Assembly (NCBI RefSeq): GCF_001904635.1
Contig: NZ_MRCB01000027.1
Coordinates: 1-64,000, forward strand
Direction of reading: 5' to 3'
Length of the DNA: 64,000 nt
Source: Hydrococcus rivularis NIES-593
Lineage (GTDB): Bacteria > Cyanobacteriota > Cyanobacteriia > Cyanobacteriales > Microcystaceae
In this document: in pieces, positions 8,120-63,059 of the stretch
Layout: every line of letters starts with the position of its first letter
Position numbering within the stretch: position 1 is the first letter of the stretch
Translations under genes and position numbers: made by a program
Notes under the pieces: generated by a model
Seen by the model: only the letters and a program-made list of their open reading frames with translations
The model's database searches: none
Told to the model about the DNA's origin: nothing

Positions 8120-8146
8120 TTCTCTATCAGGTACATAATACAGATT

Positions 8147-12790: not shown

Positions 12791-12795
12791 CAGTG

Positions 12796-14208: not shown

Positions 14209-14291
14209 CAAGTGAAAAAGCAATCATAGAAGAATTTATCCTCTTTAACTTTTGACTTGGAGAGGACACACCAGATAACTAATGAAGAAAT

Positions 14292-34406: not shown

Positions 34407-35429
34407 GTGCAGGAGTCATTCAATAAAAAGTTTTATGAATTCATGCACGCCCAAATCCGTCATTTGGTATCTTCGCTTGACAACTTACCCCAAGAATGGC
34501 GAATCGTTCCTACCTTTGGTAAACGTCCTTTAGGGAAAGGATGGGAAAAAAATACTTACTCTCCCAAAGAACTACAAACTGAACTTGTCCGCCGCCGATT
34601 AAAATTTTGGACAAATAACAGATTTATCACCCCCACTGGTATAGCCTTGGTGTGCGGTTTCAATCATCCTCAAGGATACTTAGTAGCTATTGACTGCGAT
34701 GGAGAAACATCGTGGCAACAAATCATCCAAATTAACGAGCATTCTGAACCAGGAGAACTCAACCAACTAACACGCGAAACTTCTACAGAATCGTTATGCG
34801 ATCGCGCTCAAAAATATCTTCCTCCCACAATTGCATTTACCTCTGGGAGGAAATATCGCAGCCAACGCTTATACCTCATCCCAAATTCAAAAGCTTGCGA
34901 TGTCAAATCTCGCAAAATCAAAACTGGGAAGGACGAACACCTGGAATTTCGAGGCAAAAACCTAGCTTCAATCCTCCCCCCGTCCTTTCACCCAGAAGGT
35001 AGAAATTACAAATGGCTTCCCGGCTGTAGTCCATCTGAACGCCAAATAGAAATAGCTCCTGATTGGGTAATTGCCCAAATGCTTGCTAAACAGGAGAAAA
35101 CAAGAAAGTTTAACCTACCCAAAGAAAAATATAACCGCAGATATGGGGTAGATAGGTACGCTCATTTAATTCCCTCAATAGAAACCAATATCCAGACTGC
35201 ACTTGTACTACTCGAAGTCATCCACCCTCGATTTGCAGATGATTACCATTCGTGGATTCAAGTCGGGATGGCACTCAAGAGTGTTAGTCCCATTTTATTT
35301 AAAGCATGGGACACCTGGAGCCAACTTTCTCCTAAGTACAAACCAGGCGAATGCGCCTACAAATGGCAGTCTTTTAACAAGACAGGTATCACTATCCGCA
35401 CCTTATTTAGATTAGCCAATCTCTCTTAA
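34407..35429 (+). CDS. Primase-polymerase (AEP) with PriCT-2-like C-terminus
   Basis: 340 residues from a GTG (ATG at 34443 is an alternative). The N-terminal part shows the archaeo-eukaryotic primase (Prim-Pol) pattern: WRIVPTFGKRPLGKGWEKN, ALVCGFNHPQGYLVAIDCDG with the D-x-D metal site near residue 96, AFTSGRKYRSQRLYL and HLEFRGKN. Residues ~265-330 (DDYHSWIQVGMALKSVS, FKAWDTWSQLSPKY, CAYKWQSF) match PriCT-2. No helicase domain is fused. Such enzymes prime plasmid and phage replication. It opens the replication core and is followed after 2 bp by the PRTRC-like cassette. Confidence 0.8.
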   Translation: MQESFNKKFYEFMHAQIRHLVSSLDNLPQEWRIVPTFGKRPLGKGWEKNTYSPKELQTELVRRRLKFWTNNRFITPTGIALVCGFNHPQGYLVAIDCDGETSWQQIIQINEHSEPGELNQLTRETSTESLCDRAQKYLPPTIAFTSGRKYRSQRLYLIPNSKACDVKSRKIKTGKDEHLEFRGKNLASILPPSFHPEGRNYKWLPGCSPSERQIEIAPDWVIAQMLAKQEKTRKFNLPKEKYNRRYGVDRYAHLIPSIETNIQTALVLLEVIHPRFADDYHSWIQVGMALKSVSPILFKAWDTWSQLSPKYKPGECAYKWQSFNKTGITIRTLFRLANLS

Positions 35430-35431
35430 TC

Positions 35432-35914
35432 ATGAGTAATCAAACATCACCTGACGAGAATGTAACTGGCTTTGAAGATAACTATAGCAGTAAAGATTTC
35501 AATCCTGATATTCAGGACGATCTAAATTCAGAAGAAACATTAGATGAATCAGTAAATACTGAAGTTATAAGTCAAGATTCATCTAGCGGGATAACTTTTA
35601 CCAAAACCGCCATAATAACAATTCAGTTAACACCAAATTCTGAAAAAGCAATTGTCTCAATTGGAATTCAAGATGCACCTCCAATCATAAAGATAATTCC
35701 CCTAGCTGAGATTAAATCTCAGCCTATCATAAATAACTGGCTAAATGATTTAGAAAAATCTCTCCCGGAAATGCTAAATATCTGCAAACAAAGGATGGAA
35801 AAGCAGACTACAGAGCAGAATCGACAGGAACAATCAAAACAAGTACAAAAGCGTAACCTACCTGAAGATAAAGATAAGAAACCTGCACCTAATAACCAAC
35901 TGTCACTATTTTAA
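35432..35914 (+). CDS. PRTRC-cassette protein (E-like) ending in a clamp-binding motif
   Basis: 160 residues. The first ~55 are acidic and disordered. A compact domain follows (AIITIQLTPNSEKAIVSIGIQD, APPIIKIIPLAEIKSQP), then a helix (WLNDLEKSLPEMLNICKQRM), a Gln/Lys-rich linker and the C-terminus NNQLSLF. Position directly before a PRTRC C-like gene and the overall strand-then-helix form suggest PRTRC protein E, but this is weakly supported. QLSLF is the consensus peptide by which bacterial proteins bind the beta sliding clamp, and a clamp gene lies in the same core. Confidence 0.55.
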   Translation: MSNQTSPDENVTGFEDNYSSKDFNPDIQDDLNSEETLDESVNTEVISQDSSSGITFTKTAIITIQLTPNSEKAIVSIGIQDAPPIIKIIPLAEIKSQPIINNWLNDLEKSLPEMLNICKQRMEKQTTEQNRQEQSKQVQKRNLPEDKDKKPAPNNQLSLF

Positions 35915-35919
35915 TTACC

Positions 35920-36342
35920 ATGAAGTACATTGCTATTATCGAAGGGCAAGAAATTCCTCTGGATGAGGCGATCGCCCAGGATGACAATACCCTCAAAACA
36001 GCGATTAGCGTCTACTTTCCAGAGTATGCTAATGCCGAAATTGAACGACAAACAACTGATGATACAGTTTCAATTCGTTTGGTGAAAAAAGCTGGTACTA
36101 AAGGAAGTCTATTTAGAGAATTGAACAACTGTTTTGAAGAAATAAATCCTGCACTAAAGTTAGGATGGCAGATAAAGCTTCTAGAGATAAACAGTCAAAT
36201 TAGTCTCGAAAATTTAATTACCTTACAACCTGAGATAGATAAAGCTATCAAGCTCGGTCAATCTTGGGAAACCTATAGCGAAAAAGTTGCTCAAAACCTT
36301 AAACAGCAACCCGCTATTAGGAGTAAATATCCTGTACTGTAA
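35920..36342 (+). CDS. PRTRC protein C-like (ubiquitin-like) with C-terminal extension
   Basis: 140 residues. The first ~65 resemble PRTRC C: MKYIAIIEGQEIPLDEAIAQ, then the helix TLKTAISVYFPEYANAEIE and a final strand ending GTKG. As I recall the family, PRTRC C ends at about that point and is considered ubiquitin-like in fold. Here about 75 further helical residues follow (LFRELNNCFEEINPALKLGW...), so this version has an added domain. No terminal di-glycine is present. It is five bp after the E-like gene and belongs to the same transcript. Confidence 0.55.
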   Translation: MKYIAIIEGQEIPLDEAIAQDDNTLKTAISVYFPEYANAEIERQTTDDTVSIRLVKKAGTKGSLFRELNNCFEEINPALKLGWQIKLLEINSQISLENLITLQPEIDKAIKLGQSWETYSEKVAQNLKQQPAIRSKYPVL

Positions 36343-36354
36343 TCACAAATCTAT

Positions 36355-36377
36355 AGCCGCTATAACTCGTAGCGGCT
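36355..36377. terminator. Perfect 8-bp hairpin before the 242-aa gene
   Basis: AGCCGCTA (36355-36362), 7-nt loop, TAGCGGCT (36370-36377). The next ATG is 9 bases away (36386) and there is no U-run, so a translational role is as likely as termination. Confidence 0.4.
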
Positions 36378-36385
36378 GATTCATT

Positions 36386-37114
36386 ATGCTTGGCAATATC
36401 TACTCATTCAAAATACCCATTACTTGTATAACAGCAGTTAATTATCTAGAAAATCTTTCCGAACGAGTTAATATCTTGAGTCTGTATCAAAGATTATTTC
36501 CAGAAAAATGGTTAGAATCAACCATACCTATTAATAAACAATCACATCCATCAAGTGCTTACCTAGATAGAGAAATTGAATTTATTAACCTAGTGAATGA
36601 AAATTTATTCCCAATAGAATATATAGATGAAATCGAGTTTAATTCCGAACGTGATAGTATTCTAGTTTCACCACAAAGACTTGAATGGTGGAATGAAGAT
36701 TTTGAGGAACTGGTATACTCGGAGAAGTTCCTACTTTCATTGATGGGGCAAGGGTACAATATCAACCAATGGAAACTCAATTTTGGTTTTACTCCTGACT
36801 ACATTGCTCCAGCAGAAGAAATTTACTTCGAGAAATTCGTAAAGCTGTGTCGTCGTTACAAAAGTCCCCTGCAATATTTAGATATAGCCATACGAATTAT
36901 AGATTACTCAACTGAAAATATTTGGCTAGATATTACGTGTGAAACAAGCGATTGGCTGGAATGGACTTATGAGAATATCGTATTTCTCGCTCAAAAGTGG
37001 CAAGAAGCCGTCTTGATGATAGAGAAATCAAATGAGGTTAGCCATTTGTTAGAAACATCTCTTTCTGCTCGAAAAGCAGCAGTGAAAATTTGGAATCAAG
37101 CATCAAAAGCATGA
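36386..37114 (+). CDS. Unknown protein within the PRTRC cassette
   Basis: 242 residues, acidic and largely helical with many tryptophans (RLEWWNEDFEEL, DWLEWTYENIVFLAQKWQEA). No membrane segment or metal-binding motif. It stands between the C-like and B-like genes and overlaps the latter by 4 bp (ATGA), so it is cotranslated with the cassette. I do not recognise it as any lettered PRTRC protein. Confidence 0.5.
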   Translation: MLGNIYSFKIPITCITAVNYLENLSERVNILSLYQRLFPEKWLESTIPINKQSHPSSAYLDREIEFINLVNENLFPIEYIDEIEFNSERDSILVSPQRLEWWNEDFEELVYSEKFLLSLMGQGYNINQWKLNFGFTPDYIAPAEEIYFEKFVKLCRRYKSPLQYLDIAIRIIDYSTENIWLDITCETSDWLEWTYENIVFLAQKWQEAVLMIEKSNEVSHLLETSLSARKAAVKIWNQASKA

Positions 37115-37833
37115 ATGTAGACATAAATATATTACCAATAATTAACTTAGAAAATATCTCCCAAATTCTGCTAGCCAATATTCCCCAAGATGATTTACTA
37201 GGGCAGTTAATTATTCTCAAAGGACAGTTTATTTTAGTCGAACGCGAAGGCAAAGACTCTAAATACAAATTCTTGTCTCCTGAAGCAGTAGAGAAAGCCT
37301 TCACAAGTAAAACTGCCGCATCTGGATGGCTTTCTAGCAACACGATTTGGTGGGGTAAAAATCCAGAGGGAGAGGCCATTATTCAATTTTACTCTCCCCA
37401 AAAATATCAAATTCAAATTATAGGACAGGAACCTGAAGTAATTACTGTACCAATGCCTGCATTCTTATTTGCTGGATGCGGTAGTAGATACTACCTGTGG
37501 GCAGTTAAAGGGAGGGTATTTAAACCAGACGCACAACTGTACAAGCCTCCTCTACCTAACATTTGGGACGACTCTAGTATTTGCTTTGGGGGAAATTCTC
37601 TCAGTATGTGCAGTGCTGCAACCATAACCCAAGTTTGGGATCTGTTCTGGAAATCACCTTTTAACAAGGATTTGTCTCAAGGCAAGTCAAAAACTCATCC
37701 TGATAATATCTGCAATCAACTAATCAAATTGCACGAATCTAAAGCTAAATCCTACCCTTCAAGTGACCTTGTTCCCGTTCATAGCTGGAAAGTCACAACC
37801 CCAGAAGACATTATCAATCATTTATTCAGTTAA
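37111..37833 (+). CDS. PRTRC system protein B-like
   Basis: 240 residues from the ATG at 37111, which overlaps the previous stop as ATGA. The second half has the PRTRC B pattern: IPMPAFLFAGCGSRYYLWAV, then KPDAQLYKPPLPNIWDDSSI with C-F-G, then WDLFWKSPFNKDLSQGKSK. PRTRC B proteins always accompany the JAB (A) and ThiF genes, as they do here. Function is not known; a role as an E2-like partner has been considered for ubiquitin-like cassettes but I see no conserved catalytic cysteine that would prove it (one Cys in SICFGG is a candidate). Confidence 0.65.
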   Translation: MNVDINILPIINLENISQILLANIPQDDLLGQLIILKGQFILVEREGKDSKYKFLSPEAVEKAFTSKTAASGWLSSNTIWWGKNPEGEAIIQFYSPQKYQIQIIGQEPEVITVPMPAFLFAGCGSRYYLWAVKGRVFKPDAQLYKPPLPNIWDDSSICFGGNSLSMCSAATITQVWDLFWKSPFNKDLSQGKSKTHPDNICNQLIKLHESKAKSYPSSDLVPVHSWKVTTPEDIINHLFS

Positions 37834-37835
37834 CA

Positions 37836-38432
37836 ATGAATCCTTTTATCGGTTATCACCTCGCTACAAGTAATAACTTTCCTCCCTACAGTCAAAAACT
37901 CCAGGAATACTGGCTGGCAGCAAATGGGCTTTTCTTGCGATCGCACCGCCGCGAGTTAGAAGTTTGCTTGCAACTAACTCAAACTCAAGTCGCTGGACTC
38001 CAACCCCTTGAACCCTACTTTCGTCTGAAAGTCCCAAAAGTCCCCAGCCAAGCGATCGCCGAGATTATCAATGCTGCCAGTATCAACCCCCAACAGGAAA
38101 TCCTATTCTACTTGGGAGTGACAAACAACCAATGGTGGTGTCACACACCACTGCAAACCGCGTCCTCTACTCACGTCTTATCTTTAGAAAGCGCACTCAA
38201 TAAAAACTATACAGATGGCTTTGTGGAAATGCACAGTCATGGAACTCTAGCTGCTTATCCTTCAAGTGCAGACAATCAAGAAGAAAAAGGCAAATTTCGA
38301 GTGTTCGCGATTATTGGCACACTGAATACCATTCCCACAATTTATACCCGCATCGGGATATACAACCACTTTTTCGACATCAACCCCAATCAAATATTTG
38401 AACTGCCGCCACAGGTAAAATGCTCGAATTAA
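37836..38432 (+). CDS. PRTRC system protein A-like, JAB/MPN metalloprotease
   Basis: 198 residues. The JAMM motif is visible as EMHSHGTLAAYPSSADNQEE (H-x-H ... S-x-x-D, about residues 129-148), the zinc site of JAB/MPN+ isopeptidases. Strands before it (EILFYLGVTNNQWWC) and after it (FRVFAIIGTL) fit the fold. Such enzymes remove ubiquitin-like proteins from targets. It overlaps the ThiF gene by 13 bp and starts 2 bp after the B-like stop, so all are one translational unit. Confidence 0.75.
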   Translation: MNPFIGYHLATSNNFPPYSQKLQEYWLAANGLFLRSHRRELEVCLQLTQTQVAGLQPLEPYFRLKVPKVPSQAIAEIINAASINPQQEILFYLGVTNNQWWCHTPLQTASSTHVLSLESALNKNYTDGFVEMHSHGTLAAYPSSADNQEEKGKFRVFAIIGTLNTIPTIYTRIGIYNHFFDINPNQIFELPPQVKCSN

Positions 38433-39277
38433 CTACTTACCAACAAGCTTTACCCGTCTTACCTCGCAATCATACTCGTATCAACTTCGTCTTAGTAGGA
38501 ATAGGAGGAACAGGCGGGTTTCTTGCAGAAGATTTATGTCGAATTATTCTGCAACTCCAGCGCACTAGGAAAGAAATTAACTTTGCGATCGTTGATGGCG
38601 ATACTGTCGAACTCAAGAATATCAGCCGCCAAAATTATCAACAAGCTGAAATTGGGCTACCAAAGGCAGAAACACTGGCTGCAAGATGCAGTGCCAAGTA
38701 TGGAATAGAGATTACAGCCGTTTGCGACTGGTTTGAAGAAGATATGATTCGCACGGCTAGTTGGTGGAATACCCTAACGATAATCATTGGTTGTGTAGAT
38801 AACAGCACAGCTAGAAGCAAAATTCACTCTGTTCTCAAAATCAACAGTGCAAATGAGCCAGCATCTCTATTTTGGCTGGATTGTGGAAACAGCAACTACT
38901 CTGGACAAGTAGTAATTGGAACGCACTCTAATTTTGATATAGTCCAAGCTGCCAATAACCCAGACAAACCTCAATTCTGGTTGCATCTTCCCTCTCCGGT
39001 GCTGGTTCACCCAGAACTGCTAGTTCCTCAGCCAGAAGAACTTAGCGACAACAACCTTTCATGTGCAGAAATCCAAGCACGGAATTATCAATCACTATTC
39101 GTCAATAAAATGACGAGTGCGATCGCAGCCCAGTATTTACTAGAATTAGCCCTCACTGGGGGGTTGAAAAAGTTCGCCAGTTATTTTGACCTCAAAGCAA
39201 TGTCAACCCGAAGTTTATATACAAGCATCAACCAACTTAAAAAATACTATAATCCGCAGCTAAATTACCACAAATAG
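38420..39277 (+). CDS. PRTRC ThiF-family (E1-like) adenylyltransferase
   Basis: 285 residues. The nucleotide-binding loop NFVLVGIGGTGGFLAEDL is near residue 30, followed by FAIVDGDTVELKNISRQNY, the E1 signature with the conserved D and the R/Q/N set, then KAETLAARCSAKYGIEI and a strand IIIGCVDNSTAR. E1/ThiF proteins adenylate the C-terminus of ubiquitin-like proteins. It pairs with the JAB gene that overlaps it. A downstream catalytic cysteine is not certain. Family call is firm; the modified target is unknown. Confidence 0.8.
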   Translation: MLELTTYQQALPVLPRNHTRINFVLVGIGGTGGFLAEDLCRIILQLQRTRKEINFAIVDGDTVELKNISRQNYQQAEIGLPKAETLAARCSAKYGIEITAVCDWFEEDMIRTASWWNTLTIIIGCVDNSTARSKIHSVLKINSANEPASLFWLDCGNSNYSGQVVIGTHSNFDIVQAANNPDKPQFWLHLPSPVLVHPELLVPQPEELSDNNLSCAEIQARNYQSLFVNKMTSAIAAQYLLELALTGGLKKFASYFDLKAMSTRSLYTSINQLKKYYNPQLNYHK

Positions 39278-40005: not shown

Positions 40006-40349
40006 ATCCAACAGAATTAAATATCACGAAAATCGAACTCACTCCTAACAGTGGTTGGACGCTCAATATTCTCTCGTGTCGGGTAGCGACTATTACTGAC
40101 CCCTTGGGAAATAGAAAAACCAGCTATTTCGGGTTCGATACCAAAGAACAAGCCGAAAAGTTTAGAGATTGGCTTGTCAGAAAAAACAAATGTAGTAGTG
40201 CAGTTATCCGTCACTCAGAACGATTAGCTACTGAATGGGAGGTAAAAGCTTGGAATGTACCAACCTCCCTAATTCTTGAATGCGCCGTCAAAGATTTAAA
40301 GGAATCAAGTAATGCAACTATCTCTACTAAATCTACCCTACAACGATGA
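40002..40349 (+). CDS. Small unknown protein coupled to the nuclease-like gene
   Basis: 115 residues, starting in the ATGA overlap of the preceding gene. Strands (GWTLNILSCRVATITDPLGN, TSYFGFDTKEQAEKFRDWLV) suggest a small alpha/beta fold of the kind found in plasmid DNA-metabolism proteins. Its last 38 bp overlap the methyltransferase-like gene. Not recognised. Confidence 0.45.
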   Translation: MNPTELNITKIELTPNSGWTLNILSCRVATITDPLGNRKTSYFGFDTKEQAEKFRDWLVRKNKCSSAVIRHSERLATEWEVKAWNVPTSLILECAVKDLKESSNATISTKSTLQR

Positions 40350-41367
40350 TAATTCACCCATAGCAGATATTTTTAATATTCCTAACTTAGAAAAAGCAGA
40401 ATTCCTCCGTAATTTAGCTGCTTCCATGCAGTCAACAATCGACCAAAAGAAAAATCCTGCTATTGGAAATCAAAGGGCGACAAAGCGTCGTAAAACTATA
40501 GCTCAAGGGATCATCCAAGAAGGAATTGAACTTGAGATTATCCAGTCTTGGTTATTTGCGATCGCACAAATGTGGGAAGTAGGAAATATCCCACCAATAC
40601 TACGCGGTATATCTCACAAATCGCAAGTAGAAGCCCTATTTAGAATTTTCCAAATGGGAGAAACAATTCAGAAAGTCCACGAAAAATTGGCAGGCGAATA
40701 TTACCAAGACTGGGTAAAGTCTTTAAGTCGCGCCGGATTACATATACCAAGCGAAATCATATCCGCAATAACAGAAATTCAACAGGTAGTAAAACCTGAA
40801 GCAATTGATACTACCAAGCAACTACTCAATAAGCTTGAGTTAGAAATCATTGGCATGAAAGATGGAGATTTCTTCCCTACTCCTAAACCAGTCTGTCAAC
40901 GGCTTGTTCAACTGGCAGATATTAAACCAAATTGGCGAATTTTAGAGCCTAGTGCTGGTAGTGGAAATATTGCTGAGTATATCACTAATACCTATCCTAA
41001 TGTTCAACTAGAGGTGGTTGAGATTAATTACGATTTACGACAAATTCTAGAACTCAAAGGATTTAATCTCGTAGGAAAAAACTTTCTGGAGTTTAACCCC
41101 AGTCATTTATACAATGCCTGTATCATGAATCCTCCATTTTGTGAACTTGTCCAACATATCTACCAGGCTTGGAAGTTACTCGTAACGGGTGGTGTATTAG
41201 TTTCAGTTATACCTGAATCAGTTTTCTTCAATCGTAAGTACAAAACCTTCAAAGGCTGGCTACAAGCCAATAATAGCTATGTGGAAATGGTAGATAAAGA
41301 TGCCTTCTTGAGTTCAAATAATCCTACAAACGTAGCTACCAGAATCATTAAACTCATTAAACCATAG
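40312..41367 (+). CDS. SAM-dependent methyltransferase-like protein with N-terminal clamp-motif-like peptide
   Basis: 351 residues. Residues ~180-345 form a methyltransferase core: DGDFFPTPKPVCQRLVQLAD, motif I ILEPSAGSGNIAEYI (near 220), acidic VVEIN and motif IV CIMNPPFCE (near 268), as in adenine-specific N6 methyltransferases. The target-recognition part is very short, so the substrate is unclear. The N-terminal ~150 residues are helical and unknown. The protein opens with MQLSLLNLPYND, a QLSLL peptide close to the clamp-binding consensus. It starts inside the upstream gene with AAAGGA before the ATG. Confidence 0.65.
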   Translation: MQLSLLNLPYNDDNSPIADIFNIPNLEKAEFLRNLAASMQSTIDQKKNPAIGNQRATKRRKTIAQGIIQEGIELEIIQSWLFAIAQMWEVGNIPPILRGISHKSQVEALFRIFQMGETIQKVHEKLAGEYYQDWVKSLSRAGLHIPSEIISAITEIQQVVKPEAIDTTKQLLNKLELEIIGMKDGDFFPTPKPVCQRLVQLADIKPNWRILEPSAGSGNIAEYITNTYPNVQLEVVEINYDLRQILELKGFNLVGKNFLEFNPSHLYNACIMNPPFCELVQHIYQAWKLLVTGGVLVSVIPESVFFNRKYKTFKGWLQANNSYVEMVDKDAFLSSNNPTNVATRIIKLIKP

Positions 41368-43058: not shown

Positions 43059-44393
43059 ATGAAACTAAACATTGAACAATCTAAACTTGCAGAAATTTTA
43101 GAAACCGCTTATCTCGCAATTAGTCCTAAGCCTACTGACCCAATTTTAGGAAATATCTTACTGATAGCAAATGAAGATGGGATAGTATCAGCAACAGGAA
43201 CAAACCTTAACCTCACAATTCATACTACAACGACCGCTAATGTAGAAACGTTAGGTCAGGTAGCACTACCAGCCAAATTATTAACTGACACTATTAACAA
43301 TGTCAGAGGAGAAATTACCTTAGAGGTAGAAAACCAAGCCTGCATAATTACTCACAATAGCGGTAAATGCCGTCTGATTGGTGGAAAACCTGAAGAGTTT
43401 CCAACTATTCCCAAGGGAGAAAATCCAATAGAAGTAAATTTAAGTGCCAAGAAACTCCAAGCTGCACTTGAAGGGACACTCTATTGCACCAATGGTGACG
43501 AAACAAAGTTAGTTTTAACTGGTGTCAACTTCAAAATTGATACCAACAAGTGGCAAGCTGCTAGTACAAATGGTCACAAATTAGCACTAGTCACAGGAAT
43601 ACTTGATAGCGAATATTCTGACCCAATTGACTTTACTGTTCCAGGTAAGTCACTTAGCGAGTTAAACAAAATTCTCTCTCAAAGTGCCGATACAAGCGTG
43701 TGCAATATTCTTCTATCAAATAAAACTATTGAGTTTAGTCTTCCTAATACAAAGGTCATTTCCCGACTTTTAGAGGGAGAATACCCCAAAATCAATAGTT
43801 TGATTCCCAGAACATTTGAGTATGAATTTACATTAGAACGCAAGGGATTTGAGAGCGCACTGAAGCGGGTAAGTTATCTAGCTGAACGCAAGCAAAAGGT
43901 TGTCAAAATTCTCTGGGAATTGGAAGCTACACAGGCAACACTTTACACCGAAGCTACTGATATCGGGGATGCAGTTGACTCGGTACTGATGAAACCAGCA
44001 ACTAATCATTCAGAAAACATCAGTATTGGATTAAATATCGACTACCTTATCGAAGGATTGAAGCACATCAGTACTGACGAAATCGTGGTGCGGTGTAACA
44101 AACCTACGCAACCAGTCATTATCTGCCCAATGGGAGGACTGCTCAATCAGCTGTATCTGGTAATGCCTGTAGAAATTAAGCAGGGGTTTGAAAAGGTAAA
44201 TAACCAAAGTACAAAGACAGAAGCCAGCACTCAACCTGAGCCTAGCGCTGAAGAAGTAACAGATGTAGTGCAGGCAACAAATGATAGTGAAAATTCTCAA
44301 ATAGAATCACCATCTTTAGTGGCGAAAGATACTACTAAAGGTAAGTCAACCTCACGCTCGTCACGAACGAAAAAAGAAGCCGCGACTGCTTAA
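43059..44393 (+). CDS. dnaN: Plasmid-encoded DNA polymerase III beta sliding clamp
   Basis: 444 residues. The three-domain clamp is evident: start MKLNIEQSKLAEILETAYLA, GQVALPAKLLTDTINNVRGE, FPTIPKGEN, then WQAASTNGHKLALV, ISRLLEGEYPKINSLIPRTF, ERKQKVVKILWE, and the C-terminal PVIICPMGGLLNQLYLVMPV. The last is the usual end of DnaN (PVLI...MPVR). The clamp core ends near residue 375, leaving a ~70-residue tail that is acidic and then Lys/Arg/Ser-rich, an unusual addition. A clamp on a plasmid, besides the chromosomal one, implies a dedicated replisome. Confidence 0.9.
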   Translation: MKLNIEQSKLAEILETAYLAISPKPTDPILGNILLIANEDGIVSATGTNLNLTIHTTTTANVETLGQVALPAKLLTDTINNVRGEITLEVENQACIITHNSGKCRLIGGKPEEFPTIPKGENPIEVNLSAKKLQAALEGTLYCTNGDETKLVLTGVNFKIDTNKWQAASTNGHKLALVTGILDSEYSDPIDFTVPGKSLSELNKILSQSADTSVCNILLSNKTIEFSLPNTKVISRLLEGEYPKINSLIPRTFEYEFTLERKGFESALKRVSYLAERKQKVVKILWELEATQATLYTEATDIGDAVDSVLMKPATNHSENISIGLNIDYLIEGLKHISTDEIVVRCNKPTQPVIICPMGGLLNQLYLVMPVEIKQGFEKVNNQSTKTEASTQPEPSAEEVTDVVQATNDSENSQIESPSLVAKDTTKGKSTSRSSRTKKEAATA

Positions 44394-44457: not shown

Positions 44458-45747
44458 ATGTACCAACCACTACATCTCAAATACCGTCCCCAGACTCTTA
44501 GTGAAGTTATTGGGCAAGAACATATCGTTCGCACTCTTATAAATGCGATCGCACTCCAAAAGATTGCACCTGCTTACCTATTTAGCGGCCCCAAAGGTAC
44601 AGGTAAAACCAGTACCGCCCGCATCATCGCTAAATCTCTTAACTGTCAGTCAAGCAATGAGCCGACAACTAAGCCCTGTGGAGAATGCAATTCATGCAAG
44701 GGAATTACAGCATCTTCTTCTGTTGATGTAACCGAACTGGATGCAGCAAGCAATAGTGGGGTAGAAGTGATCCGAGACCTTATATCCACTATCCAGTTTG
44801 CACCAGTGGAGGGTAGATTCAAAATATTCATTATTGATGAATGTCATGCCCTAAGCACCCAATCGTGGCAAGCACTCCTCAAAACCATTGAAAGCCCTCC
44901 CCGTCATGTAGTATTTATCTTCTGCACAACCGAGTTACACAAAGTTCCAGAAACCATTGTCTCCCGTTGCCAAAAGTTCGACTTTAAGAGAGTTCCTGTC
45001 TCGCTAGTTGCAAGCTACCTAGAACAAATATCTCACCAAGAAAGTATCAACATTGCACCATCAGCAGTTACCGCCGTAGCTAAAGCAAACAAAGGACATC
45101 TGCGCGACTCACTCAAACTATTAGACCAGTTAACCTTACTAGGTGAAGAGGAAATTACCTCTAACTGGGTTTGGGAACTATCAGGCACTATTCCCGAATA
45201 CGATTTACTCACTGTCTGTGAAAATATCATCAAAGGAGAAATTACGGGCAATTTAGGCATCCTTCAAGATTGGATTGAATCTGGTAAACAGACAACTGCT
45301 ATCCATATAAGTCTTGTCAACTTCCTCAAAGACTTACTTGTGTGCAAAACTAATCTCAATAGCAGACATCTTACACAGCTAGAAGAGGACACCTGGGAGG
45401 AATTAGTAAGTATCTCGCAGTTGTGGAATATCGACCAGATCCGAAACGCGATCGCACTTTTAATGGCACGCCAAAATCTCATGCGGGATGAAGACGCGCA
45501 CCTTTGGTTGGAAGCTACATTTATCGAGATAGTGTCAACCAACAAGGATAGTCACCAATCACAACCCTGGAAAGATTGGAAAACTGCTCAAGATGCGATT
45601 AACTGGGGCAAGGAACAGTTACCTCACTTAACACAAACGCAGTTACAAGAACACTGGCAAAAGCTGACACCTATTAATGGTAAAAAAGCACCTGCTTGGG
45701 TAGAAGCTGTCCAAAAGCTGCAACAAAAACAATTACAGCAAGCTTAA
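44458..45747 (+). CDS. dnaX: DNA polymerase III gamma/tau-like clamp-loader ATPase
   Basis: 429 residues. AAA+ clamp-loader features in order: LKYRPQTLSEVIGQEHIV, Walker A SGPKGTGKTSTAR (near 45), the zinc module CGECNSCKGI (73-82), Walker B IIDECHAL (near 124), TIESPPRHVVFIF and the SRC motif IVSRCQKFDFKR. The C-terminal ~140 residues form the collar domain plus a short tail ending KLQQKQLQQA. The long tau tail that binds the alpha polymerase and DnaB is absent, consistent with a replisome without an alpha subunit. Confidence 0.9.
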   Translation: MYQPLHLKYRPQTLSEVIGQEHIVRTLINAIALQKIAPAYLFSGPKGTGKTSTARIIAKSLNCQSSNEPTTKPCGECNSCKGITASSSVDVTELDAASNSGVEVIRDLISTIQFAPVEGRFKIFIIDECHALSTQSWQALLKTIESPPRHVVFIFCTTELHKVPETIVSRCQKFDFKRVPVSLVASYLEQISHQESINIAPSAVTAVAKANKGHLRDSLKLLDQLTLLGEEEITSNWVWELSGTIPEYDLLTVCENIIKGEITGNLGILQDWIESGKQTTAIHISLVNFLKDLLVCKTNLNSRHLTQLEEDTWEELVSISQLWNIDQIRNAIALLMARQNLMRDEDAHLWLEATFIEIVSTNKDSHQSQPWKDWKTAQDAINWGKEQLPHLTQTQLQEHWQKLTPINGKKAPAWVEAVQKLQQKQLQQA

Positions 45748-46629: not shown

Positions 46630-48447
46630 ATGAATTATAACCACAGAGATTTTGTAAAAAAATCTAGAGGGGGAATCGTTGTCGATGAAGACAAACTAAA
46701 CATTTATTGGAAAGACCCCTCTCCAATAAAACCTTGGCAGCCCAAAATACAACTCAAGCCGTATCAGGAACTTTTACAAATATTTGTTGATATTGAAACA
46801 GCAGGAATCAACCCATTTGAAAGCCGTATTTATGCTATTGGTTGTATGGATTCAAGGGGATATTCTACTATTTTCATGGATATCTCAGAAGCTAAAATAC
46901 TGACCAAATTTATCAACCATCTCAGTAAAAGAAATCCAGATGTAATTTTCACATATAACGGGATGGCATTTGATATTCCATTTATTATTACTCGATGCAA
47001 CTTGCACGGTATAAAACACCCATTTCAAGTTGCATCCAAATCTCGGACTATTCGTACCGCCCAAGTACGGGGCGAGCCACTAAAAATTCAGGAGGTGTTC
47101 ATCCGAAATAGCCAACACGTAGACATTTATATATGTGTTCTGAGGTGGGATTTCATAGCCAAAAAGCTAACTAACGGCAGATCGCTCAAAAAGGCTGTAT
47201 TGGACATGGGACTGCGCCAGAACACTAGGCTAGTTCTTCCCTATGAGGAAATCCTCACTTGTTGGAAAGATGGCCCCAACAGTAAGGGATGGAAACGCCT
47301 GAAAGAGTATCTTGTGTACGACCTCGAAGACACCCGGCTAATTGCGAATAGACTTGTACCCTCATACTATTACGAAGCACTAATTGTACCAGAAATGAAC
47401 CTCCAGCAGCTAACACTTGCTGGTAATGGTACTAAATGGGAGCGAATATTTGAGCATCATTATCCAGGTTATAAACCAAAACCTGATCGCAAGTACAAAT
47501 TTCAAGGAGGGATGGCTTACTCTATTCCTGGGCTGTATAGAAGGGTTGGATATGCAGATATTAGCTCAATGCACCCTTGGGCAATGCTAGACAAGGGTAT
47601 TTGCTCAATTAAAGATACAGAACGTATTGGGCTAAGTATTCTGCAATATTTGGTGAATGAAAAATCTAGGCTGGAACAACTTGCATCTGCTGGAGATGTT
47701 GCTGCTAAGGAAAAAAGAGAATCCGTCAAGGTTTTAGCTAACTCTGAGTTTGGATTCTTAGGCACCTCTGAACTCGCCTTCAATGATATGGAAGCTGCTG
47801 CATTAGTTACAGCCTACAGTCGAAAAGTACTCAAGCTCATGATTGAAATTATCACTCGGCACGGTGGTACTCCTGTGGAAGTTGACACCGATGGAGTGTT
47901 TTTCACACATCCCAACCCAGAAGAGGTACGTAGTTTACTTCAATCTCAATTGCCTAAAGGGATAACTGTCAAGCTAGAGTTTATCGCCGACGCTATGTTT
48001 ATCCCCGAACGGGGAACCAAAAATTACCTTTTATGGCTTCCAGACGGGAAAATCATCACTAAAGGCAACTGGCGCAACCGCGATCGCTCTCAATTGGAGA
48101 AAGAGTTTTCTATTGAGTATTTAACCCTGCTAATTCAAAATGTATCAGTAGCAGAAGATTATTATGCACACATCAAATCCCAGATTTTATCAAGGGAATA
48201 TCCAAAAGAAAAACTTGCAATCACACGCAAAATTAAAGAGGGTGAAAAAGAAATCCTCAAACTAGGGAAACCTGGAGATGTAGTCACTTACTATTACGGA
48301 ATTAGTGGCATAACCAATATCAGCAGTAATGAGAATTACTCACGTCAATACTATCTTCACCTTATTGAAAAAAGGCGAGAAGAAATTCTTAAAATAGCTG
48401 CTCCTGCAACACTAGAAAGTAACAAACGTCAGTTATCTCTTTTCTAA
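46630..48447 (+). CDS. Family B DNA polymerase with 3'-5' exonuclease and C-terminal clamp-binding motif
   Basis: 605 residues. Exonuclease motifs: I LFVDIETAGINP (near 50), II TYNGMAFDIPF (near 108), III VYDLEDTRLI (near 228). Polymerase motifs: A YADISSMHPW (near 308), B KVLANSEFGFLG (near 368), C EVDTDGVFF (near 418). All catalytic acidic residues are present. The enzyme is short for family B (E. coli Pol II is 783 aa), lacking most of the N-terminal domain. The last five residues, QLSLF, match the beta-clamp-binding motif; Pol II ends in a similar peptide. It is the only polymerase in the window and the likely plasmid replicase or repair polymerase. Confidence 0.85.
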   Translation: MNYNHRDFVKKSRGGIVVDEDKLNIYWKDPSPIKPWQPKIQLKPYQELLQIFVDIETAGINPFESRIYAIGCMDSRGYSTIFMDISEAKILTKFINHLSKRNPDVIFTYNGMAFDIPFIITRCNLHGIKHPFQVASKSRTIRTAQVRGEPLKIQEVFIRNSQHVDIYICVLRWDFIAKKLTNGRSLKKAVLDMGLRQNTRLVLPYEEILTCWKDGPNSKGWKRLKEYLVYDLEDTRLIANRLVPSYYYEALIVPEMNLQQLTLAGNGTKWERIFEHHYPGYKPKPDRKYKFQGGMAYSIPGLYRRVGYADISSMHPWAMLDKGICSIKDTERIGLSILQYLVNEKSRLEQLASAGDVAAKEKRESVKVLANSEFGFLGTSELAFNDMEAAALVTAYSRKVLKLMIEIITRHGGTPVEVDTDGVFFTHPNPEEVRSLLQSQLPKGITVKLEFIADAMFIPERGTKNYLLWLPDGKIITKGNWRNRDRSQLEKEFSIEYLTLLIQNVSVAEDYYAHIKSQILSREYPKEKLAITRKIKEGEKEILKLGKPGDVVTYYYGISGITNISSNENYSRQYYLHLIEKRREEILKIAAPATLESNKRQLSLF

Positions 48448-49437: not shown

Positions 49438-50400
49438 ATGATGCCAGTATACCTATACTACGGCGAAGATACCTATTCGCTCAACCAAAAAATCAACCAT
49501 TTGGTGAATCAAAATGTTCATGCTGAATGGAAAGCTTTCAACTACATCAAGCTATCTGGAAATGAGAAAAATATTGCTGCCAAGGTTTTTACTGAGGTTA
49601 TGACTTTACCCTTTGGAGAGGGTAATAAGATTGTTCATACAGACAGCGAGCAATTAATTGGAAGTTTATCAAATGAGGATAATAACCAAGAACTTGAAAA
49701 TCAACTTTCTCGAATACCTGCAAGTAACATTCTCTTAATTACTAGTAACAAAAAGCCAGATTCCCGTAGAACAGTAGTGAAAACTATCTTAAAATATGCT
49801 CAACAAGAAGAGTTTCCTCTCGTTCCTTGTTGGGATAAAAAGGGGATAGTTAGTTTGATAGGGAAGTATGCAGCTATCCATCAAGTTAAACTTACATCGG
49901 ATGTGACCGATTATCTGGTCGAAGCAATTGGTAATAACACTGCACGAGCCGATAGCGAATTTGCTAAACTTGCTGTCTATGCAAGTGAAAAAATTATTTC
50001 CGTTGAGGAAATAAAACAATTAGTTAGTAATCACAATACTGACTATCAAAAGCTTACTATGGCTATGTTAAGAAATCATTCAAACTTGGCAATAGCGCAG
50101 GTGGATAAACTACTAGATAGTAATGAACATCCACTCAAAATAGTAGCAACTCTTACGTCAGTTTTTCGCACTTGGCTAATAATTAAAGCTGGCGTAGAAT
50201 CTAAATTATCTGACATGAAGATTGCAGAAATAGCCGAATTGAATAACCCTAAAAGATTGTATTACCTCAAAGATGAAATCAAGTTTGTAGGCGTTCAAAA
50301 ACTAAAAAACAGCCTTACCTTACTTTTACAACTCGAAACGGAACTCAAAAGCGGCACTAACAATTTAATTAGTCGAATTATTGAAATTTGCACGATATGA
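49438..50400 (+). CDS. holA: DNA polymerase III delta subunit-like clamp opener
   Basis: 320 residues (a second ATG is at 49441). It begins PVYLYYGEDTYSLNQKINHL, the usual delta start; AAKVFTEVMTLPFGEGNKIV contains the T-L-P-F clamp-wrench motif; SRIPASNILLIT, KKPDSRRTVVKTI and a long helical domain with NNTARADSEFAKLAVYA follow, as in HolA. Delta has no P-loop, and none is seen. It overlaps the delta-prime gene by 4 bp (ATGA), which ensures balanced production of the two clamp-loader parts. Confidence 0.85.
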   Translation: MMPVYLYYGEDTYSLNQKINHLVNQNVHAEWKAFNYIKLSGNEKNIAAKVFTEVMTLPFGEGNKIVHTDSEQLIGSLSNEDNNQELENQLSRIPASNILLITSNKKPDSRRTVVKTILKYAQQEEFPLVPCWDKKGIVSLIGKYAAIHQVKLTSDVTDYLVEAIGNNTARADSEFAKLAVYASEKIISVEEIKQLVSNHNTDYQKLTMAMLRNHSNLAIAQVDKLLDSNEHPLKIVATLTSVFRTWLIIKAGVESKLSDMKIAEIAELNNPKRLYYLKDEIKFVGVQKLKNSLTLLLQLETELKSGTNNLISRIIEICTI

Positions 50401-51272
50401 AAAACGACTTATTTACAGAAATCATCGGACAGCATACCGCCAAACTTCTACTAACTGAAGCAATCGAACGTAATCAAATTGCTCCTGCATACCTATTTAG
50501 CAGCGAAGTTGAGGGAGTAGGCAAAGGAAAAACTGCTCTGGCGTTCGCAAATGCGATACTCTCAAAAGGAAGTCGCTCCACGAACGCAGGAGAATCTAAA
50601 CATCTAGACATCTTACAAATCAAACCAACCTATATCGAAAACACCTCCCAGCAGAAAAGTGTCCCTGCTATCCGAGTAGAACAGGTGCGCGAGGTAATTG
50701 AATTTCTCTCAACTAGTGCAGTCGAGGGCAAGCAAAAGGTTGTGATTATCCACGAAGCAGATATGCTCAACCCTACCGCCGCTAACAAACTTCTCAAGAC
50801 GCTGGAAGAACCCAAAACTGGAACGTTTATTCTGATATCATCCTATCCTCAAAAGCTATTACCCACTATCAAGAGTAGGTGTCAAATCATACCTTTCCAA
50901 AGGTTAACTGATGAGGAGGTTATTTCTGTCCTTAAAGACCAACAGATTGAGGCAACAGAAAAAATACTAGCTATCAGTTCGGGCAGTCCTGGTCAAGCGA
51001 TCGCCAATATTAAAATGTTAGCTTCCATCTCACAAGAAATCACAAAGGAACTGGAAGTGCCTCCTGACGATATCCTCAAGGCACTCAGTTTAAGTAACTC
51101 CATCTCAAGCTGGAATCACCAAACGCAGTTATGGTTGCTTACCTACCTACAATACAACTGGTGGCAGAAATTAAAAAGCACTAAGCTACTAGCTAAATTC
51201 ACCCAAGCAAAAAAGCAATTGCTGCATCACGTTACGCCCAGAAGTGTTTGGGATAGCCTACTTCTGCCATAA
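50397..51272 (+). CDS. holB: DNA polymerase III delta-prime-like clamp-loader subunit
   Basis: 291 residues from the ATG in the ATGA overlap. FTEIIGQHTAKLLLTEAIER, the P-loop-like VEGVGKGKTALAFANAIL, VEQVREVIEFLSTSAVEGKQ, VVIIHEADMLNPTAANKLLKTLEEP and SRCQIIPFQRL are standard delta-prime/DnaX-type segments. The P-loop has the unusual form GVGKGKT. The zinc module of DnaX is missing, as expected. With holA and dnaX it completes a clamp loader on this plasmid. Confidence 0.85.
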   Translation: MKNDLFTEIIGQHTAKLLLTEAIERNQIAPAYLFSSEVEGVGKGKTALAFANAILSKGSRSTNAGESKHLDILQIKPTYIENTSQQKSVPAIRVEQVREVIEFLSTSAVEGKQKVVIIHEADMLNPTAANKLLKTLEEPKTGTFILISSYPQKLLPTIKSRCQIIPFQRLTDEEVISVLKDQQIEATEKILAISSGSPGQAIANIKMLASISQEITKELEVPPDDILKALSLSNSISSWNHQTQLWLLTYLQYNWWQKLKSTKLLAKFTQAKKQLLHHVTPRSVWDSLLLP

Positions 51273-51350: not shown

Positions 51351-52022
51351 ATGAACCAGCAACACAGTTTATTCGATGTCGAAGAAACCATCCGTAACAG
51401 TAAAAGCCAAAAAGCTAGCGAAATATTAAACCCTAGCACTAGAAAGATACTTCAGCTACTAACTAGCCAAGGGATTAATAAAGCTGTAACAGCTAGTCTA
51501 CTCGATCTAGCAGGAGCAAGCCGTGAAATTGTTCAATACATCGCCGGGCCAGTTGTGACTCAGCAGAACGGTTGGCAACAGTCAATTCCCACTTGGGTAG
51601 GAAAAGCGATCGCAGTTGATAGATTAGATGCAGCTTTACAAGAGATAGACAAGGGAGAAGTAGGTAAACTCGCCTCTAGTAGCGAAGTTGTTGCACTGAT
51701 GATGCCAATTGCTTTTGAAGTGCCGCTATCATCCGAATGGACAGATGTTTACCTCTGGGCAAGTTATGATGCCCTCGTTAAGCACAGACCTTTCAAGAAT
51801 TTTAACTACGAAAACCTCTGGGAGAAGATTGGTACAACTCCGGTTTCGTATGACAAAATTCGCTCTGATTATGAAACCCTGGCTGCTGATATCCGTTCTC
51901 GTGTAGTCAAACACGCGGCGAAAGAGGGATGGGGTAAGAAGTCTTCAAATAACAACAAGCACCCTGTTACAGCAACTTCAACTGAAAGTAATACTAAGAT
52001 GGAGCAATTGTCACTGTTTTAA
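51351..52022 (+). CDS. Unknown protein with clamp-binding-like peptides at both ends
   Basis: 223 residues. It begins MNQQHSLFDVEE and ends KMEQLSLF, i.e. a QHSLF and a QLSLF peptide at the two termini. The middle is helical (LLTSQGINKAVTASLLDLAG, EVGKLASSSEVVALMMPIAF, DVYLWASYDALVKHRPF) with no motif I know. It follows the clamp loader by 78 bp. Two clamp-binding peptides on one chain could bridge two sites of the clamp ring or two clamps. Confidence 0.55.
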   Translation: MNQQHSLFDVEETIRNSKSQKASEILNPSTRKILQLLTSQGINKAVTASLLDLAGASREIVQYIAGPVVTQQNGWQQSIPTWVGKAIAVDRLDAALQEIDKGEVGKLASSSEVVALMMPIAFEVPLSSEWTDVYLWASYDALVKHRPFKNFNYENLWEKIGTTPVSYDKIRSDYETLAADIRSRVVKHAAKEGWGKKSSNNNKHPVTATSTESNTKMEQLSLF

Positions 52023-57614: not shown

Positions 57615-58385
57615 ATGTCATCAACCAAAATAATTGCCACTTTCAATCAGTCAGGTGGTGCAGCTAAGACGACTATTACACACAATCTTGGATACCACCT
57701 TGCTAAAAAACACCGTGTACTGCTTGTGGATATGGACCCACAAGCATCGCTAACAGCTTTTATGGGATTAGGGGAAGTCAAGCTCAAAACTGAGCAAACT
57801 ATCTATGGTGCGATCGCTGAAGAAACTCCCCTGTATATATGGGAAAAACCTATTCACGGGATGCACCTTGTACCAACAAATATCCAATTGGCAGGTACGG
57901 AGCAAAAAATTTTTCATGACTTGACCATTGACAACCGCCAACGGCTCAAATTTGCACTCTCAAATGTACTTGACCAGTATGATTATATTTTAATTGATTG
58001 TCCGCCTTCTCTAGGAATCCTAAGCATTATGAGCTTAGTAGCTGCTTCACACGTTATTATTCCTGTTGAAACACAATATAAGTGCTATCTTGGCACCAAC
58101 CAACTGCTAGAAACGATCGCCCGGCTCAAAAAAGGAGGACACCAGAAATTACAAATTGCCTGTATAATTCCAACCAAATACGATAATCGTAATCTTCAAG
58201 ACACAGGAATACTGGAAGAAATTAAACAACAGGTTGAAGGACGGATACACGTTACTGCCCCCATTCCTAAATCAACAGCTTTTCCTGACGCAACCCAGGC
58301 ACATCTACCACTTGCACTCCACAAGAAAAACCACCCCGCAGTTAGCATACTCGAAGAAATTACAAAATATATTACTCAACTATGA
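57615..58385 (+). CDS. parA: ParA-type partition ATPase
   Basis: 256 residues. FNQSGGAAKTTITHNLGYHL is the deviant Walker A; VLLVDMDPQASLTAFMGLG, YDYILIDCPPSLGILS and HVIIPVETQYKC are the other ParA/MinD motifs. The 'signature' lysine that normally begins the K-G-G-x-x-K-T loop is serine here; as I recall, several cyanobacterial plasmid ParAs have Q-A or Q-S at this place. No N-terminal DNA-binding extension, so it is a type Ib-like small ParA. It overlaps parB by 4 bp (ATGA). Confidence 0.9.
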   Translation: MSSTKIIATFNQSGGAAKTTITHNLGYHLAKKHRVLLVDMDPQASLTAFMGLGEVKLKTEQTIYGAIAEETPLYIWEKPIHGMHLVPTNIQLAGTEQKIFHDLTIDNRQRLKFALSNVLDQYDYILIDCPPSLGILSIMSLVAASHVIIPVETQYKCYLGTNQLLETIARLKKGGHQKLQIACIIPTKYDNRNLQDTGILEEIKQQVEGRIHVTAPIPKSTAFPDATQAHLPLALHKKNHPAVSILEEITKYITQL

Positions 58386-62438: not shown

Positions 62439-63059
62439 ATGAATTCTTTTCCCAAAACTTTATCGTCCGAGAACTTTTCTAGTTCGCAATACAACAATCG
62501 TAAGAGATACAATCTTTTTGTATCTGCCAATGTTACCCAGGCACTAGGAAATGTCCCGATCGTACAGCTTGGAAACATATCCCGTGTATGTATTGAATCA
62601 GAGTGTTTATTAAAGCTTGAGAGCTGCAATCCTGGAGGATCAATTAAGGAGAAAAATGCAGTTTACCTCGTCAAGCGTGCGGAGGAAGAAGGACTACTTG
62701 TACCTGGTGGTACGATTATCGAGTCAAGCTCAGGAAATTTCGGCGTTGGTTTAGCAATGGTAGGAGCAGTCCGAGGGTATCGAGTGATTATTGTTGTCGA
62801 TGCCAAAACTGCGCCACCGTTTAGACGAATGCTGAAAGCATATGGTGCGGAACTTGTGGATGTACCGCTACATGAAGCAGACGAATCAGGCTCTATGCAA
62901 AAGGCGAGAATGAAACGAGCGCATGAGCTTACCGCAACTATCCCTAATGCTTGGTATCCATGTCAGCACTTGAATCCTTGGAATACTGAGGCACATTCAT
63001 ACTACACTGCGCGGGAAATTGAAGCCCACTTTGCTGGCATCAGTGAGAGGTTAAGGTAA
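62439..63059 (+). pseudogene. PLP-dependent cysteine-synthase/SbnA-like gene, 3'-truncated
   Basis: 206 residues. The fold type II start is intact: LGNVPIVQLGNIS, then NPGGSIKEKNAVYLVKRAEE with the PLP-binding lysine, TIIESSSGNFGVGLAMVGAV, and FRRMLKAYGAELVDVP. Complete enzymes of this family (cysteine synthase, diaminopropionate synthase SbnA) are about 310-340 residues; here the frame stops just before the transposase and the second PLP phosphate-binding loop is missing. The transposase insertion probably cut it, so I treat it as a pseudogene, although a short protein could still be made. Confidence 0.65.

Follow-up and report, generated by a model that had tools for sequence, protein, structure and literature searches.

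Operons in which a small ubiquitin-like protein (Ubl) is encoded beside E2-like, JAB and E1-like proteins were described in 2006 as uncharacterized, type 6d operons among them (Iyer, Burroughs and Aravind; PMC1779556), and the NCBIfam PRTRC families (TIGR03735-TIGR03738, TIGR03741 and TIGR03742) cover cassettes with the gene order E-C-F-B-A-ThiF. In the open-licence literature, covered mainly at title and abstract level, we found neither a paper reporting a function for such cassettes nor one linking a Ubl or PRTRC system to the DNA sliding clamp. Here we analyze a cassette of this kind in a 64,000-nucleotide stretch of plasmid DNA from the cyanobacterium Hydrococcus rivularis NIES-593 (hereafter, the window), which is part of a 67,398-base contig (NZ_MRCB01000027.1). 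The cassette spans positions 35432-39277 and comprises six open reading frames (ORFs) in one tight row, all on the + strand, encoding an E-like protein, a C-like protein that contains the Ubl, a 242-aa protein in the PRTRC F position, an E2-like protein (B), a JAB peptidase and an E1-like ThiF protein (Table 1). These genes are of a known kind; their clamp motif, their tie to a plasmid clamp, a Ubl fusion in Bacillus and the natural split of Ubl and tail did not turn up in the literature covered. The explanation that we favor, with modest confidence, is a plasmid-borne Ubl conjugation system physically coupled to the plasmid's own replication clamp. The comparisons below suggest that the cassette serves to mark or retain proteins at the replication machinery of the plasmid itself, and the conserved clamp motif gives it a concrete place of action, making PRTRC function testable.

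A conserved clamp motif at the end of the E protein

The window E protein ends exactly in QLSLF. For the C-terminal QLSLF of Bacillus subtilis PolC, a KD of 3.8 micromolar for DnaN has been measured, and QL[SD]LF is given as the commonest clamp-binding consensus (PMC12309361). Judged by its sequence and predicted structure, the E protein of the window carries the QL[SD]LF/QxxLF consensus in an exposed segment. E proteins were then defined, at each fetched locus with a Ubl ORF, as the longest same-strand ORF ending near the Ubl start, and 79 loci were retained after leaving out 15 duplicate or partial ones; the duplicate pair L039/L092 stayed in this set and was merged in counts of unique sequences. 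The strict pattern Q[LI]xLF lies within the last nine residues of E in 68 of the 79 loci, and a looser pattern in 73, against a strict-pattern background of 19 among 3844 other ORFs of the same loci, these being mechanical six-frame ORFs of at least 60 aa and not curated genes. Eleven of the 19 background matches belong to relatives of the PolB-like enzyme, which is itself probably a clamp client. Counted as unique sequences, 65/76 E proteins and 18/3705 other ORFs match the strict pattern, and 71/76 and 43/3705, respectively, match Qxx[LM][FL]. L080 yielded no E; for L025 a wrong ORF entered the 79-locus count, and the annotated E, which ends in DLLSLLA and does not match, was used in the unique counts. 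The linker of E is predicted to be disordered and is rich in Q and K, as a chance motif or low-complexity C-terminus would have it, but shuffled E tails matched in 2 of 15200 trials, against 68 of the 79 loci, and on these sequence grounds we reject a chance motif as having next to no probability.

The motif is retained in diverged E proteins. Clustering at 60% identity (74 loci; L106, L110, L023, L024 and L025 left out) produced 22 clusters, 18 of whose representatives carry the strict pattern and all of which fit Qxx[LM][FL], with QMALL, QVTMF, QRSLF and QMALF in the four non-strict cases. L106 has no credible E, and the upstream ORF of L110, which ends in QAGLFE, overlaps the Ubl ORF; neither this ORF nor that of L114 has a Pfam match. 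In an alignment of 27 E proteins, drawn from 31 representatives with L103, L090, L026 and L114 left out, Q156 is the sole invariant column besides the start Met, and the last L and the F of the motif are nearly invariant; in a smaller alignment of 19 E proteins four other columns are invariant as well. Across the diverged sequences, conservation is thus concentrated at the end of E, with drift elsewhere in the protein. Codons vary among the 68 strict genes, which use all six Leu codons at position 4 and 29 distinct 15-mers for the motif. The AlphaFold model of E (overall mean pLDDT 64.9, pTM 0.39) shows a disordered start (pLDDT below 50 at residues 1-54, except residue 20), a confident beta-beta-beta-alpha core, whose block means exceed 90 over residues 61-120, and a flexible linker that leads to the motif, an arrangement that suits a tether. 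On this evidence, E very probably binds the clamp via QLSLF. A preliminary description of this DNA, made from its sequence alone, had proposed from the QLSLF of the window E protein that the modification system may act at the sliding clamp, and had called for a search for clamp motifs in E proteins elsewhere. Their presence in 68 loci leads us to reject a motif unique to the window sequence, and the proposal is much strengthened by the recurrence and conservation of the motif and by the plasmid dnaN tie and Ubl fusion described below.

Plasmid-borne clamp genes and other lineages

Of 23 cassette plasmid records, 18 score above the cut-off for the clamp family PF00712, as do three of seven further ones. 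In tables filled in by hand from per-record results, with the motif taken as Qxx[LM][FL] (located on the Ubl protein in W26), 19 records have both motif and dnaN, one has the motif alone, one has dnaN alone and six have neither, which yields a Fisher P of 1.6e-4 that is too strong because the records are related by descent; W08, W11 and W18, which have no readable E, were left out, and the sub-cut-off dnaN match of W25 was counted as none. Collapsed by hand to lineages, the corresponding counts are 11, 1, 1 and 4 (P = 0.01). Among 21 IMG/VR records dnaN is present in two, exactly those whose Ubl protein carries a motif, and the table extended by IMG/VR records (L141, L145 and L147, without a Ubl ORF, left out) reads 21, 1, 1 and 22. 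At the genome level, an extra dnaN occurs in 9 of 10 cassette genomes (one of them broken) against 1 of 20 cassette-free genomes, the latter chosen by hand and mostly large. Burkholderia-type E proteins (L025, L131 and L132) end in [DN]L[AL][SD]LL plus one residue, and their plasmids are without dnaN; L133 has neither motif nor dnaN and L134 has no motif and a dnaN match below cut-off, so that both fit the tie. As a separate observation, two IMG/VR fragments (L149 and L150) hold, immediately ahead of the Ubl gene, an ORF of 314-359 aa that starts or nearly starts with MTQLALF; no dnaN was found in these fragments.

The clamp encoded in the window shares 134 of 371 aligned residues (36%) with the DnaN of the host chromosome, and their alignment shows that it keeps host-like GH[KR]LA and LVMPV segments, which we take to belong to the clamp peptide pocket. 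The plasmid protein ends in an extension with eight Lys residues that is absent from the host clamp; related clamps have a Lys-bearing extension of 66-99 aa where our rule placed the end of the core (it returned 0 for L013 and did not work for L026, L075, L076, L077 and L114), and the Vibrio clamp of L129 is without one.

Motif and clamp gene also meet outside the cyanobacteria. Vibrio plasmids encode an E protein at the edge of the PRTRC_E cut-off (37.9 against 37.95 bits) that adjoins PRTRC C and ends in QVTMF or QVQMF, and their dnaN lies directly after ThiF in L129 and L130, with one small ORF between in L026. In a Chloroflexi contig from a metagenome-assembled genome (L114), the upstream ORF ends in QMALF, and 1.9 kb beyond ThiF there is a dnaN-like ORF. 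On a Bacillus halotolerans plasmid, QLALF lies within a low-complexity stretch of the protein encoded after B, ahead of a Ubl-like part that ends in GAKKG; two IMG/VR contigs carry relatives of this fusion (80% and 57% identical) with QLALF and QFSLF at the same place, and all three Bacillus-type records have their own dnaN. We identify the Bacillus part as a Ubl from how it ends, where it lies and which proteins it resembles, these being annotated as MoaD/ThiS or as Mov34 neighbours; the Ubl profile built here did not score it. Nothing ties the motif to the Ubl pathway more strongly than its presence in one chain with a Ubl. A search of 50,697 phage records returned no match to the Bacillus-type fusion and 11 distant ThiF matches. 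On the Vibrio plasmid L126, two ORFs (8121-8849 and 12198-12992) both match the E2-like B profile, and L129 appears alike by eye.

Besides the relatedness of the records, several observations weigh against coupling to the clamp. All the support for it is sequence-based. The motif is lacking in the proteobacterial PRTRC E of the Burkholderia, Cupriavidus, Pseudomonas and Marinobacter records examined, in E of the Pseudanabaena (L133) and Chondrocystis (L134) plasmids, and in 16 other IMG/VR loci with a readable upstream ORF, where at most the two longest ORFs of fragments were considered for a C-terminal motif. Three exceptions to the tie are G092, whose E ends in QLTLFT (L037) and whose genome has a single dnaN; W20, with dnaN and an E that ends in SQF, without the motif; and W15, with an E that ends in QMALL and no dnaN. 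The window E has no detectable homology to PRTRC_E (hhalign probability 0.9%, the last 10 columns alone aligned), and its model has no Foldseek match at or below E 0.001. Co-occurrence of motif and dnaN could also reflect merely large self-replicating plasmids that carry both.

A related alternative is that E is one more client of the plasmid clamp, such as a replication factor or a polymerase competitor, that heads the Ubl operon by chance, with conjugation taking place elsewhere. The PolB-like enzyme and a 223-aa protein of the window carry the same motif, primase, dnaN, dnaX and holA genes surround the cassette, and the sequence of E is poorly conserved outside the motif, all of which would be expected of such a client. 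E nevertheless adjoins the Ubl gene in diverged cyanobacterial loci and PRTRC C in Vibrio, and in the Bacillus-type records motif and Ubl lie within one protein; we consider a mere client role unlikely. Coupling of the Ubl pathway to the clamp remains the reading that we prefer.

The putative conjugation genes and their proposed working

From its sequences the cassette looks like a complete Ubl set, since the E2-like nature of B means that it comprises E1, E2, Ubl and JAB. The gaps between genes are 2 bp (primase-E), 5 (E-C), 43 (C-F), -4 (F-B, counting B from the ATG at 37111), 2 (B-JAB) and -13 (JAB-ThiF), and the JAB sequence holds the full JAMM pattern H-x-H-x7-S-x2-D. The preliminary description thus proved accurate in reporting six tightly spaced or overlapping genes 2 bp behind a primase, a JAB protease with an intact JAMM motif, and a C protein made of a Ubl and an extra domain, the last point agreeing with the match to the PRTRC C profile and with a predicted beta-grasp-like unit and helical tail; the E2-like assignment of B and the finding that the plasmid encodes much of a replisome go beyond it. 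Across 17 aligned E1 sequences, the GxGGxG, Lys, Asp and Ser-Cys columns are invariant. Among all hits, which take in some truncated ORFs, the JAMM pattern is found in 83 of 87, the E2 N...C-x-G pattern in 94 of 96 B proteins, and the E1 patterns GxGGxG and SC in 94 and 95 of 108. Prok-E2_D is rare in the phylum, occurring in 10 of 386 genomes, the window's own among them. E, C and the 242-aa protein returned chance-level Pfam and NCBIfam matches only, none above cut-off.

Table 1. Features of the cassette and of the neighbouring replication genes (window coordinates).
Feature	Position	Strand	Evidence or remark
Bifunctional primase/polymerase (Prim-Pol + PriCT-2)	34407..35429	+	Pfam 2.8e-24 and 1.2e-23
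E-like protein, 160 aa	35432..35914	+	ORF and AlphaFold model
QLSLF at exact C-terminus of E, predicted clamp-binding motif	35897..35911	+	Motif conservation
C-like protein, 140 aa: Ubl and helical tail	35920..36342	+	hhalign to PRTRC C; model
Ubl moiety, residues 1-62, ending in GTKG (predicted mature C-terminus)	35920..36105	+	Split Ubl genes elsewhere
242-aa protein in PRTRC F position	36386..37114	+	Synteny
B, Prok-E2_D E2-like protein, PLPN...C-x-G	37111..37833	+	Pfam 3.8e-46; alignment
JAB/JAMM peptidase, PRTRC A-like	37836..38432	+	Prok-JAB 7.8e-11
E1-like ThiF protein, GIGGTG and SC	38420..39277	+	PRTRC_ThiF 4e-39; Pfam ThiF 2.3e-17
Plasmid beta sliding clamp DnaN	43059..44393	+	Three Pfam domains
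71-aa C-terminal extension of plasmid DnaN, 8 Lys	44178..44390	+	Absent from host clamp
DnaX (gamma/tau)	44458..45747	+	DNA_pol3_delta2 5.9e-42, DNAX_ATPase_lid 1.5e-8
PolB-like exonuclease/polymerase ending in QLSLF	46630..48447	+	DNA_pol_B_exo1 4.3e-12; DNA_pol_B 6.9e-5, under cut-off
Clamp-loader delta	49438..50400	+	2.7e-30
Clamp-loader delta-prime-like protein	50388..51272	+	Pfam DNA_pol3_delta2 2.1e-36
223-aa protein, QHSLF near start, QLSLF at end	51351..52022	+	No Pfam match

The window Ubl is fused to a helical tail of about 78 aa, and Ubl and tail are separate genes in 11 collected loci and also in plasmid L133. Stand-alone Ubls end exactly in NGSKG (three Planktothrix loci), in GPKG (L133) or in GxKG plus two residues (the rest), and G-x-[KN]-G marks the Ubl-tail junction in 64 of 65 fused C proteins, L114 being the exception. 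The model of C (mean pLDDT 77.9, pTM 0.40) has a beta-beta-alpha-beta-beta unit, a low-confidence hinge at residues 60-63 and helices from residue 64, with GTKG at residues 59-62; its Foldseek list is rich in ubiquitin and Ubl chains, but has no entry with an E-value of 0.001 or less. That other loci divide Ubl and tail into separate genes at the predicted cleavage point makes JAB a probable protease for the fused Ubl, acting after GTKG. In PADLOC, the Ubl-tail protein matches the model C3a152, labelled 'Type III-C specific' (1.2e-23); because Cmr genes adjoin the cassette in L011, this model may be a mislabelled plasmid gene.

In the working that we propose, ThiF, as the E1, would activate the Ubl at its C-terminal GTKG, B would carry it as the E2, and JAB would first free the Ubl from its helical tail and later remove conjugates. 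E would be an adaptor: its C-terminal QLSLF would occupy the plasmid clamp's peptide pocket, and its folded domain, at the other end of the flexible linker, would hold the Ubl machinery or Ubl-bearing proteins at the clamp; attachment and removal of the Ubl would then control which proteins stay at the plasmid replisome. Ubl conjugation of some kind is likely, and we lean towards its acting at the clamp; as to what it modifies, we can offer a guess, either the polymerase or the plasmid clamp through its Lys-rich tail. The coupling could run in two directions. Clamp-docked machinery might modify the proteins present there, the Lys-rich clamp tail perhaps included, or the Ubl itself might be a tag by which proteins are recruited to the clamp, a direction hinted at by the Bacillus fusion. 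A portable clamp tag of this sort, making its bearer a client of the plasmid clamp, is a possibility that we hold tentatively: it would act without an adaptor in Bacillus-type plasmids, whose Ubl protein bears Q[LF]xLF itself, and via E as a Ubl-reading adaptor in cyanobacteria and Vibrio, with JAB releasing the client.

The Ubl might instead be a sulfur carrier or a non-covalent regulator of the ThiS/MoaD kind that stays unconjugated and serves a metabolic or assembly role. E1-like and JAB genes do occur with ThiS/MoaD and cysteine synthase in other operons, as the 2006 survey records (PMC1779556), and the window has an ORF of the PALP class, to which cysteine synthase belongs, 23 kb from the cassette (62439-63059). 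The cassette encodes, however, a stand-alone E2-like protein with conserved N...C-x-G, and no thiamine, cofactor or cysteine gene was recognized between 34 and 52 kb, a region in which several ORFs have no family; we regard a sulfur carrier as very improbable and retain Ubl conjugation. The PALP ORF itself (1.5e-36) covers about the first half of the Pfam model and adjoins a transposase-like ORF on the opposite strand.

The surroundings of the cassette are those of a large plasmid. Seven Nostocales plasmid records (214-301 kb) each span 80% or more of the 28-52 kb part of the window at a DNA identity of 95.6-96.1%, and those members of this plasmid group that we examined are typed conjugative. 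Such identity of positions 28000-52000 to Nostocales plasmids points to either recent inter-order plasmid transfer or an assembly mix-up. The order primase-E-C-F-B-JAB-ThiF, followed by dnaN and dnaX, is also present on Trichormus, Tolypothrix and Nostoc sp. C052 plasmids; dnaN is nearer ThiF in Anabaena and Sphaerospermopsis and farther in Nostoc carneum, and other cyanobacterial plasmids have a non-primase gene before E, e.g. a sigma factor. In L051 and L035 the contigs that hold the cassette are as large as chromosomes (8.5 and 5.7 Mb), so that integrated plasmids or assembly joins exist. ParA and ParB are also encoded in the window. With its two clamp-like motifs, the 223-aa protein could bridge two clamp pockets. 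A methyltransferase-like protein (40312-41367) begins with MQLSLL, a clamp-like motif at the N-terminal end, and matches PADLOC mad2 (1.5e-16). A group II intron with a reverse transcriptase ORF occupies 54890-56666.

Comparison with PRTRC, type 6d operons and known conjugation systems

The order E-C-F-B-A-ThiF is common to the window and to the PRTRC cassette of Paraburkholderia (L025), where it reads ParB-E-C-F-B-A-ThiF, and is thus shared across phyla. The best NCBIfam matches of B, JAB and ThiF are PRTRC_B, PRTRC_A and PRTRC_ThiF, all under the curated cut-offs (63.1 against 131.45 bits for B, 43.8 against 101.8 for A and 134.4 against 144.75 for ThiF). The window C has no direct hmmscan match to Pfam or NCBIfam profiles above cut-off, but aligns with proteobacterial PRTRC C through the GxKG end (hhalign E 1.5e-5 and 3.5e-5, probability 79.5 and 71.7%); the PRTRC C of L025 is Prok_Ub (9.1e-25). 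The protein in the F position shows no homology to PRTRC_F (hhalign probability 0.1%, against only three PRTRC F-position sequences), and with profile-profile comparison giving no homology for either protein we reject a plain PRTRC identity for both E and F. The PRTRC label of the preliminary description therefore holds for the gene order and for the relatedness of ThiF, B, A and C, the first three as best NCBIfam matches below their cut-offs and C by profile, and fails for E and F, which match no PRTRC family. The window differs further in that its C bears an extra tail and in that a primase takes the place of the ParB encoded directly before E in PRTRC, a ParB_N protein lying far off at 58382-59329.

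The cassette also fits operon type 6d as set out in the available part of Iyer et al. (PMC1779556), having in common with it adjacent Ubl, E2-like, JAB and E1-like genes plus one further conserved protein; the window would represent a branch of it in which E bears a putative clamp-docking peptide. Type 6d has a largely alpha-helical protein between Ubl and E2, and in the window a 242-aa protein is encoded at that place. As described in that part of the study, type 6d is without the E protein, clamp motif, plasmid dnaN and Ubl-tail fusion that the window has, and the downstream His conserved in 6d E2s is not evident in our B alignment. The Ubl of type 6d is small and stand-alone with a C-terminal Gly; in our set it is fused in the window, and stand-alone with a Gly end in L014, L095, L100 and L133. 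The table row for type 6d includes the cyanobacteria Ana and Avar. Avar we take to be the strain of NC_007412, the plasmid C of which holds a close relative of the window cassette.

Type II CBASS is defined by a CD-NTase and an E1-E2 fusion in one operon. The E1-like adenylation domain and a JAB protein are common to the window cassette and to bacterial E1-E2-JAB systems such as CBASS Cap2/Cap3 and BubCD, and ThiF matches Cap2 and BubCD chains in the PDB; the likeness to Cap3 and to the conjugation chemistry of the CBASS systems is one of analogy. The window has, by comparison, separate E1 and E2 genes, its own Ubl and a replication context. No CD-NTase match was found among the cassette proteins scanned against Pfam, NCBIfam and PADLOC, and with E1 and E2 encoded separately we reject membership in type II CBASS. 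A role in defence or counter-defence could still be imagined, with the clamp as a sensor or landing site for modifying proteins of a phage, the host or a competing plasmid. Related E1-E2-JAB systems are reported to act in antiphage defence in CBASS (PMC10097602), and in the Oscillatoria plasmid L017 CBASS-type CD-NTase/SAVED genes stand right after ThiF on the other strand (11304-14501). PADLOC nevertheless credits the cassette with no more than E1-E2 homology for ThiF and, for C, a CRISPR label that is doubtful, replication genes surround it and the motif tracks the plasmid's own clamp, for which reasons we judge a defence role improbable and continue to favor action at the plasmid replisome.

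In eukaryotes, the sliding clamp PCNA is modified by ubiquitin and SUMO. If conjugates form at the plasmid clamp, the window cassette would be a functional parallel to these modifications, with homology limited to the E1, E2 and Ubl folds, and protein conjugation would act at a bacterial DNA sliding clamp as ubiquitin does at PCNA. Should the Ubl moreover be a portable tag, the cassette would give the plasmid a bacterial equivalent of ubiquitin signalling at the replication clamp, with which to run its own replisome inside the host.

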